Shown here: piece by piece, positions 14,156 through 43,492 of the stretch
How the letters are laid out: each line of letters starts with the position of its first letter
Position numbering within the stretch: position 1 is the first letter of the stretch
Origin: Halorubrum hochsteinianum
GTDB lineage: Archaea; Halobacteriota; Halobacteria; Halobacteriales; Haloferacaceae
DNA length: 64,000 nt
Reading direction: 5' to 3'
Assembly: GCF_023702125.1 (NCBI RefSeq)
Contig: NZ_CP098415.1
Location: 744,001-808,000, forward strand
Made by a program: the position numbers and the translations under genes
The notes under the pieces: model-generated
Databases searched by the model: none
What the model was told of the DNA's origin: nothing
Seen by the model: only the letters and a program-made list of their open reading frames with translations

Positions 14156-14257
14156 GTGCGCAGATCCGTTGTGGAATTGAAATAAAGCTGTCCGACGGGA
14201 ACGGGGAAATCGGATCGAGGAAGGGTTCGATAAATCGGTGATCGACACGAACACCAC

Positions 14258-14500
14258 CGAAGCCCCAGCCGGGAGGCGGACGCACGCTCGCTGCGGTCCT
14301 CACTCGGTCGCTACCGCTCCCTCGTTGCGGTGCTGCCGTCGCCTGCGCCCGCCTCCCGGCTGCCCCTTCGAGTCCCGCCCCGCACAGCACCGCAACCGCA
14401 CCTCACGCCTCCCCAGCCTCGTCGGTCGCGCTTATAAGCGCGACCGACTCCCTCGCGCGGTGCTGCTCGCGGGCCGATGGCCCGCTCGCAGGCACGCGCC
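14258..14500 (-). repeat. Intergenic hairpin element, copy B (structured-RNA candidate)
   Basis: The 458-bp stretch between the DUF3784-like gene and gatB has no gene but holds an element related, on the opposite strand, to 43143-43389. Read on the minus strand it has a G+C-rich hairpin (about 14452-14500), a perfect 28-bp palindrome at 14421-14448, a conserved single-stranded-looking segment (GAGGCTGGGGAGGCGTGAGG), and a long hairpin with 19-nt arms at 14344-14362 and 14266-14284. Outer CGAAG/CTTCG arms are separated from the main stem by a GGG/GGG internal loop. Differences from copy A keep the pairing. Beyond the element, a weaker AAGTGAGCG...CGTTCACTT inverted repeat lies at about 14518-14551. 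Whether it is transcribed is unknown. Confidence 0.7.
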
Positions 14501-14613
14501 GACCGCATTGTTCATTATAAGTGAGCGTCGCCGCCGCTGGCGTTCACTTAAATACCAGATTGAAGTCGAGAAATCCGGTACGCGTCTCTGTTGTCGTTCG
14601 ACGACCGGCCGTC

Positions 14614-43071: not shown

Positions 43072-43142
43072 ACGCGCGGATACGCCCCGCGCCGTGTTAA
43101 ATCATGATCTTCGTTGACAGGAAACACTCCAACGTCGCGGTG

Positions 43143-43389
43143 GCGCGTGCCCGCGAGCGGTCGCCCTCGGCGACCGCGAGACGGCACGCGCGAGGGAGTC
43201 GGTCGCCGAGCGGAGCGACGGCGACCGACGAGGCTGGGGAGGCGTGAGGTGCTGTGCGGTCGCGGTCGGGCGGGACTCGAAGGGGCAGTCGCGAGGCGGG
43301 CGCAAGCGACGCAAGCACTGGAAGGAGCGAACGGAGTGAGCGACTGAAGCGCGCAGCGAGCGTGCGCCCGCCTCGCGACTGGGGCTTCG
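43143..43389 (+). repeat. Intergenic hairpin element, copy A (structured-RNA candidate)
   Basis: Hairpin 1: GCGCGTGCC (43143-43151) with GGCACGCGC (43183-43191), enclosing CGGTCGCC-ctc-GGCGACCG (43158-43176). Hairpin 2: GTCGGTCGCC (43198-43207) with GGCGACCGAC (43220-43229). A conserved segment GAGGCTGGGGAGGCGTGAGG follows. Hairpin 3: CAGTCGCGAGGCGGGCGCA (43286-43304) with TGCGCCCGCCTCGCGACTG (43363-43381), a perfect 19-bp stem, extended outward by GGG/GGG and CGAAG/CTTCG. A related copy lies on the other strand at 14258-14500. The interval 43072-43533 has no gene. Confidence 0.72.
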
Positions 43390-43492
43390 GCGGTCTCGGT
43401 CGTGACGAGAACAAGTTCGTATAGCCGAGCGACTGGGGCTTCGGCGGTCTCGGTCGTGACGAGAACAAGTTCGTATAGCCGAGCGACTGGGG
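43375..43492 (+). repeat. 54-bp tandem repeat, two full copies plus partial
   Basis: The unit begins GCGACTGGGGCTTCGGCGGT and ends TTCGTATAGCCGA; copies start at 43375, 43429 and 43483 (the last only ten bases). The two full copies look identical. The first overlaps the right arm of the copy-A hairpin, so the tandem may have arisen by slippage at its end. No spacers, hence not CRISPR. Confidence 0.85.

Follow-up and report, generated by a model that had tools for sequence, protein, structure and literature searches.

A structured hairpin repeat of Halorubrum genomes, probably an old copy of an IS5-mobilised MITE family

Two intergenic copies of an element with three hairpins lie in the window, a 64,000-nucleotide stretch of the Halorubrum hochsteinianum genome, and they differ by base changes that preserve pairing. 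What kind of element folds in this way, and does it serve the host or move through it? The first-pass annotation had offered two readings: an RNA fold under selection, or a mobile repeat that depends on its hairpins. We conclude that the element is probably an old member of a family of non-autonomous transposons, a MITE (for the definition and examples from Haloquadratum, see PMC3119063) mobilised by an IS5-type transposon and carrying a structured core kept by selection.

Anatomy and distribution of the family

Reading the sequence recovered both annotated copies with their shared hairpin order, the first at 43143-43389 on the plus strand and its partner at 14258-14500 on the minus strand (Table 1). 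With both oriented alike, stem P1 with hairpin 1 (HP1) is followed by hairpin 2 (HP2), a 20-nt linker and hairpin 3 (HP3). The framed 19-bp HP3 was also where it had been placed, at 43278-43304 / 43363-43389. It is built as CGAAG-GGG-19 bp / 19 bp-GGG-CTTCG, with the 19-bp stem at 43286-43304 / 43363-43381, and its parts are the CGAAG/CTTCG frame, the GGG/GGG internal loop and an apical arm with a GA-ladder. The location given for the first copy was right, but its boundaries were too narrow: complete copies continue further at the 5' end, and on the 3' side come units of ~54-60 bp, which in the window form a 54-bp pair reaching 43488. Units akin to this pair are present at other copies of the family. 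To the 5' side of the minus-strand copy lie TATTTAA and a TATA-like box, and the 5' flank of this copy is common to 6 other species. Conserved G-runs (GG-CT-GG-GGA-GG-YGTGA-GG) mark the plus strand at the linker (43230-43249) and at HP3 (43270-43285 and 43381-43384), and a predicted two-tier G-quadruplex could form from them in the high-K+ haloarchaeal cytoplasm.

Table 1. Features of the two window copies and of the IS5-family elements in the same genome (G000). Pairing values are Watson-Crick fractions with the copy's own partner arm and with arms of other copies (shuffled).
Feature	Position	Strand	Observation
Stem P1 (GGCGCGTGC / GCACGCGC), around hairpin 1	43142-43150 / 43184-43191; whole part 43142-43191	+	
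Hairpin 1, GCGGTCGCC-CTC-GGCGACCGC, inside P1	43157-43177	+	6-bp class: own 0.977, shuffled 0.718 (n=66); 9-bp class, low variation: own 0.977, shuffled 0.923 (n=34)
Hairpin 2	43198-43229; arms 43198-43208 / 43219-43229	+	GCGGAGC-type loop; own 0.951, shuffled 0.711 (n=93)
Core linker GAGGCTGGGGAGGCGTGAGG, 20 nt, conserved	43230-43249	+	125 matches in G000 (<=2 mismatches, both strands), reversed control pattern 0; 17/95 genera
Hairpin 3	43278-43389; outer arms 43278-43304, 43363-43389	+	own 0.930, shuffled 0.759 (n=153)
Two exact tandem 3' units, 54 bp (GGGGCTTCGG...GCGACT)	43381-43488	+	read in sequence
Second window copy	14247-14506	-	nhmmer 193.5 bits
IS5-family element L400	G000:C2:66826-68244		intact 273-aa transposase ORF; exact 8-bp duplication GATTTTCT
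IS5-family element L390	G000:C1:1768996-1770589		278-aa ORF, NF033579 184.8 bits

Among the BLAST matches listed for the genome that contains the window (G000, 3.06 Mb), at least 40 are copies of the 247-bp element at E <= 1e-48, well outside what chance would give. The linker count puts the family at 125 copies or more; at ~260 bp each, they make up about 1% of this genome alone. The family is present in all sampled species of Halorubrum, with 13-194 copies each; in the first sample, 34 of 34 other Halorubrum species had 14-181 linker matches (control, 0-1). Across the order, the linker occurs patchily, in 70 of 392 genomes, and in another genus copy number runs from 0 to 94 depending on the species. 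Strain names in a GTDB scan were mostly Halorubrum, together with Haloparvum, Halorussus, Halosimplex and Halobellus.

All 24 copies placed across 464 kb with a home-made gene caller were intergenic. Their neighbour genes lay in every orientation with no gene-side preference, and no recurrent gene family adjoining the copies was found. A role as a leader, 3' UTR or terminator was rejected on this random orientation; a protein-coding gene inside or constantly beside the core was likewise rejected, as none was found, and so was viral or phage carriage (0 matches). Among the open-licence papers searched for repeats, palindromes, MITEs or structured RNAs in Halorubrum, no description of this family was found.

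Variant and composite copies also occur. A ~50-bp two-hairpin unit (TTCACGAGAGC..GCTCTCGTGAGCCAATCAGAACGC..GCGTTCTGATGA), which looks like a secondary small mobile hairpin, sits at the identical point of HP3 in different species (L083 2742-2792, L171 11344-11394 and L186 2094-2143). Arrays of short hairpins with CTGCCAGAG/CGCTGCC linkers are inserted into parts of the element or replace them (L028, L031, L035, L079 and L109). At two loci (G000 C1:228973-229110 and C1:550427-550551), HP3 is precisely missing and GGGCGGG is joined to GGGCTTCGG, while in Halorussus-like genomes (L309-L323) a short hairpin followed by GTAGCTAGCTTC stands in its place as an alternative 3' module. Exact tandem arrays of three or more identical 3' units (~54-63 bp), probably recent slippage, were seen at L016/L148 (G000 ~452.8 kb) and L035.

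Insertion sites, terminal tips and a resident IS5-family transposase

Orthologous sites support mobility of the family. A same-orientation copy in G000 was found for 14 of the 21 assessable copies of one Halorubrum species (G026), with 7 sites empty, and for 13 of 26 in another (G061), with 11 empty. The two window sites had a match in 18 and 17 of 30 genomes, counted in either orientation and over fetched loci longer than the single intergenic gap. Several copies in G061 carry terminal blocks that face inward, at -84 and at +77 to +89 of the core; outside these blocks lie inverted tips (GGCTCTGTTGAAATCCT...) and then flanking 8-mers. In four of the five core-bearing copies, these 8-mers are near-duplications (GTATAAAC/TTATAAAC, CTATAAAT/TTATAAAT, TCGATCCC/TCGAACCC and AAATAATC/GAATAATT), alike at 6-7 of 8 positions; the fifth shows no duplication. 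Copies with both blocks were missing from the G000 site in 4 of 4 assessable cases, against 9 of 22 others, a difference not significant alone (Fisher p 0.096). In one case (D160627), an older copy has a young one inserted in its TATA-like 3' unit.

Such ends are rare. A terminal block was detectable at 20 of 371 core matches, on both sides in 11; the 371 include some duplicates from overlapping loci, as do other counts from overlapping locus sets. No terminal block was found in the window or in the 400 kb of G000 examined, and we read the window copies as old and tipless, assigned to the family by homology.

The same GGCTCTGTTGAAATCCT tips in G000 also bound IS5-family transposase elements, one with an intact ORF (Table 1). 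The C-terminus of the L390 ORF differs from that of the C2 copy, probably through a frameshift. Seven tip-bounded elements, the autonomous one included, are flanked by exact 8-bp duplications (GATTTTCT, GGAGAACT, AGATAGTA, GCAAAACA, GTTCAGGT, TTGCGATC and AGAGAAGT). Some other short elements, of 0.3-1 kb, lack the structured core yet bear these tips and are flanked by exact 8-bp duplications (L379/L404 at G061:C1:427093-427554, L401, L402, L403 and L406), and in a plasmid record an annotated IS5-like ISHla3 transposase lies between related tips. No reverse transcriptase (PF00078) matched in G000, and a retroelement-type repeat was rejected on that ground.

Judged by its sequence, the Halorubrum unit classes as a MITE of an IS5-type transposon. 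Young core units, in G061 and others, share terminal inverted repeats with the autonomous transposon, the target duplication has the same length (8 bp), and the unit, less than 1 kb between its tips, holds no transposase gene; the window copies themselves have lost their tips. We propose that the complete unit is MITE-like, roughly 720-770 bp, and would consist of terminal blocks of ~100 bp that bear the inverted tips, inner parts rich in AT, and the ~260-bp structured core (P1/HP1, HP2, linker and HP3). Most likely, the IS5-family DDE transposase would act in trans on the tips, moving the unit into sites between genes, often TATA-like ones, where 8 bp of the target would be duplicated; the tips would then decay while the core persists. 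Since young copies bounded by tips exist and the resident transposase is intact, mobility can be tested directly. As for the annotated "hairpin-dependent mobile repeat", mobility is borne out by presence and absence at orthologous sites, patchiness, inverted tips and target duplications; hairpin dependence finds no support, since young copies have the ordinary ends of an IS5-type DDE transposon and G000 lacks a Y1 transposase.

Pairing, folding strand and turnover of the hairpins

We compared how well each hairpin arm pairs with its own partner and with the arms of other copies. Own-arm pairing was higher in all three hairpins, least so in the 9-bp class of HP1 (Table 1). In a cross-genus alignment of 40 sequences, the covariation score was 0.272 against 0.131 in shuffles, none of 500 reaching it, and slid controls stayed at or below 0.10. 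The base of P1 is invariant among genera while its upper pairs covary, and every pair of HP2 has changed on both sides somewhere. The frame pair of HP3 is retained as G-C or A-T in 145 of 150 copies, being G-C in 45 of the 47 copies of G000 and its sister species G020 and mostly A-T in other species. The pairing-preserving changes first noticed between two copies, weak evidence by themselves, thus agree with the many-copy tests, and the additional copies give the covariation statistical support, as expected of a structured RNA. The pairing is real, and selection on it is supported.

Mismatches indicate which strand folds. Among distinct arm pairs, G-T outnumbers A-C by 60 to 17, and because G-T on one strand reads as A-C on the other, the asymmetry points to the annotated plus strand as the folding one and indicates selection on it in its folded, single-stranded form. 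In HP1, 113 of 134 loops have a length of 3 nt. Of 126 distinct HP3 apices, 95 (3.5 in shuffles) alternate two Watson-Crick pairs with a GA/GA step and mostly end in GNA triloops. In DNA, such triloops have unusual stability; tandem sheared GA pairs are found in DNA and RNA alike. The loops and the ladder hint at folded DNA without deciding between RNA and single-stranded DNA. At -13, 73 of 199 copies have a TATA-like box, an enrichment over a control stretch (8 of 199), yet it is missing in most copies and its transcripts would begin within P1; a promoter just upstream starting an RNA was therefore rejected, and the box belongs to the AT-rich inner region of the full unit. Of the "selected RNA fold" suggested at the outset, selected, strand-specific pairing stands; the fold may be RNA, but the prevalence of triloops and the lack, in most copies, of a promoter at the right distance from P1 do not favour this.

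The stems are also replaced quickly. All 7-8 comparable copies are shared between G000 and its sister G020, whose aligned stretches are about 95% identical, and several of these copies have wholly different stems and loops with identical linkers. Between G000 and the species G026 and G061, joints in orthologous copies are 0.93-0.99 identical, against 0.61 for HP2, 0.74 for HP1, 0.73 for HP3 and 0.605 for the 5' flank; HP2 and the flanks have been essentially replaced. Among 39 parsed G000 copies, nearly all HP1 and HP2 are unique. Across genera, the joints (GGCGCGYGC..GCGCGAGGG, GAGGYTGGGGAGGYGTGAGG and GAAGGGG/GGGGCTTC) are constant and the stems unrelated, which argues for selection on a folded single strand, be it for the element's spread or for the host.

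Does the core, then, belong to the transposon at all? Instead, it may have a function of its own as a separate structured module of RNA or single-strand DNA, such as a small RNA that is transcribed or a site of recombination or replication. An IS5-type MITE would then have captured the module in Halorubrum, and in other genera it would spread otherwise; we regard this as quite possible, though short of probable. The joints kept between genera with unrelated stems, and in orthologous copies beside randomised flanks, favour it, as do the wobble-pair asymmetry, the triloops and GA-ladder, and a linker identical in other families. The GGCTCTGTTGAAATCCT tips were absent in the few loci read from Halorussus, Halosimplex and other non-Halorubrum carriers, so the core may be older than the MITE or its passenger; and the many copies at an unchanged site across species, with conserved joints, are also compatible with a host function. 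On the other side, no family in Rfam 15 had its gathering threshold reached by the element, there is neither a fixed gene side nor a recurrent neighbour, a range of 0 to 94 copies within one genus is odd for a host gene, and the -13 box is confined to a minority of copies and would start transcripts inside P1. We tentatively suggest that the core is a previously undescribed haloarchaeal structured nucleic-acid module, in which hairpins of free sequence, rewritten between sister species, present fixed single-stranded joints, and which may act as folded single-stranded DNA or RNA in its carrier transposon's spread or in a host process.

Near-perfect, fast-changing stems replaced at orthologous sites might also covary without selection, if one palindrome arm were copied onto the other (quasi-palindrome correction or hairpin-templated repair) and gene conversion homogenised the copies; the lineage-wide switch of the frame pair from GAAG/CTTC to AAAG/CTTT would suit this. 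Copying should nevertheless be symmetrical, whereas the G-T excess is strand-specific; it would erase the non-Watson-Crick GA steps that the ladder retains; and the joints are constant across genera. We consider this explanation unlikely.

For the MITE with a selected core, the reading we prefer, the plus-strand fold would be maintained with its joints fixed and its arms free to vary as long as pairing holds, and the fold may matter for the element's own propagation. The quick replacement of arms would most likely come from hairpin cassettes swapped between copies through their identical joints, together with compensatory change. Whole-hairpin turnover is best explained in this way, although exchange does not fully explain the near-uniqueness of each copy's hairpins: an own version of HP1 and HP2 in nearly every G000 copy is a poor fit to plain homogenising gene conversion. 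The family offers a natural case in which joints hold constant and stems turn over at a genome divergence of about 5-8%, and with its many replicate loci per genome one can ask which property of a fold selection maintains. As to the folding strand, the wobble asymmetry and the GA-ladder yield a specific claim that can be checked.

Relation to known repeat systems

These results add a large repeat family to haloarchaeal genomes. High-copy, intergenic and palindromic, it could be taken for a REP/BIME-like or PATE-like repeat moved by a hairpin-binding Y1 (IS200/IS605, RAYT) transposase, but this is highly improbable, as Y1_Tnp (PF01797) had no match in G000 (control genomes were positive) or in five other species with 74-130 copies, and Y1 elements lack the inverted tips and target duplications seen at the young copies. 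The likeness to REP/BIME with RAYT and to PATEs (PMC3119063) lies in the palindromic intergenic repeats.

Haloarchaeal MITEs (PMC3119063) are closer: they too are short and non-coding, with inverted tips like those of known transposons, target duplications, intergenic positions and many copies. The present unit differs in its core of ~260 bp, which is strongly structured, evolves by compensatory change, outlasts the tips and occurs in other genera without them. The ISHla3-family IS5 element of plasmid pR1SE2 and its relatives in G000 have similar tips, and those in G000 encode an IS5-family DDE transposase with exact 8-bp duplications. Unlike our unit, the ISHla3-family element encodes a transposase and has no structured core; the relation of the G000 elements to it is read from their tips and family. 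BOX, RUP and ERIC repeats are modular, with stable hairpins. Like BOX and RUP of Streptococcus pneumoniae (PMC3049150) and ERIC, the family described here is a high-copy interspersed intergenic repeat; in contrast to them, it is unrelated in sequence, bears the inverted tips of a resident IS5 transposon and is spread patchily across a whole archaeal order.
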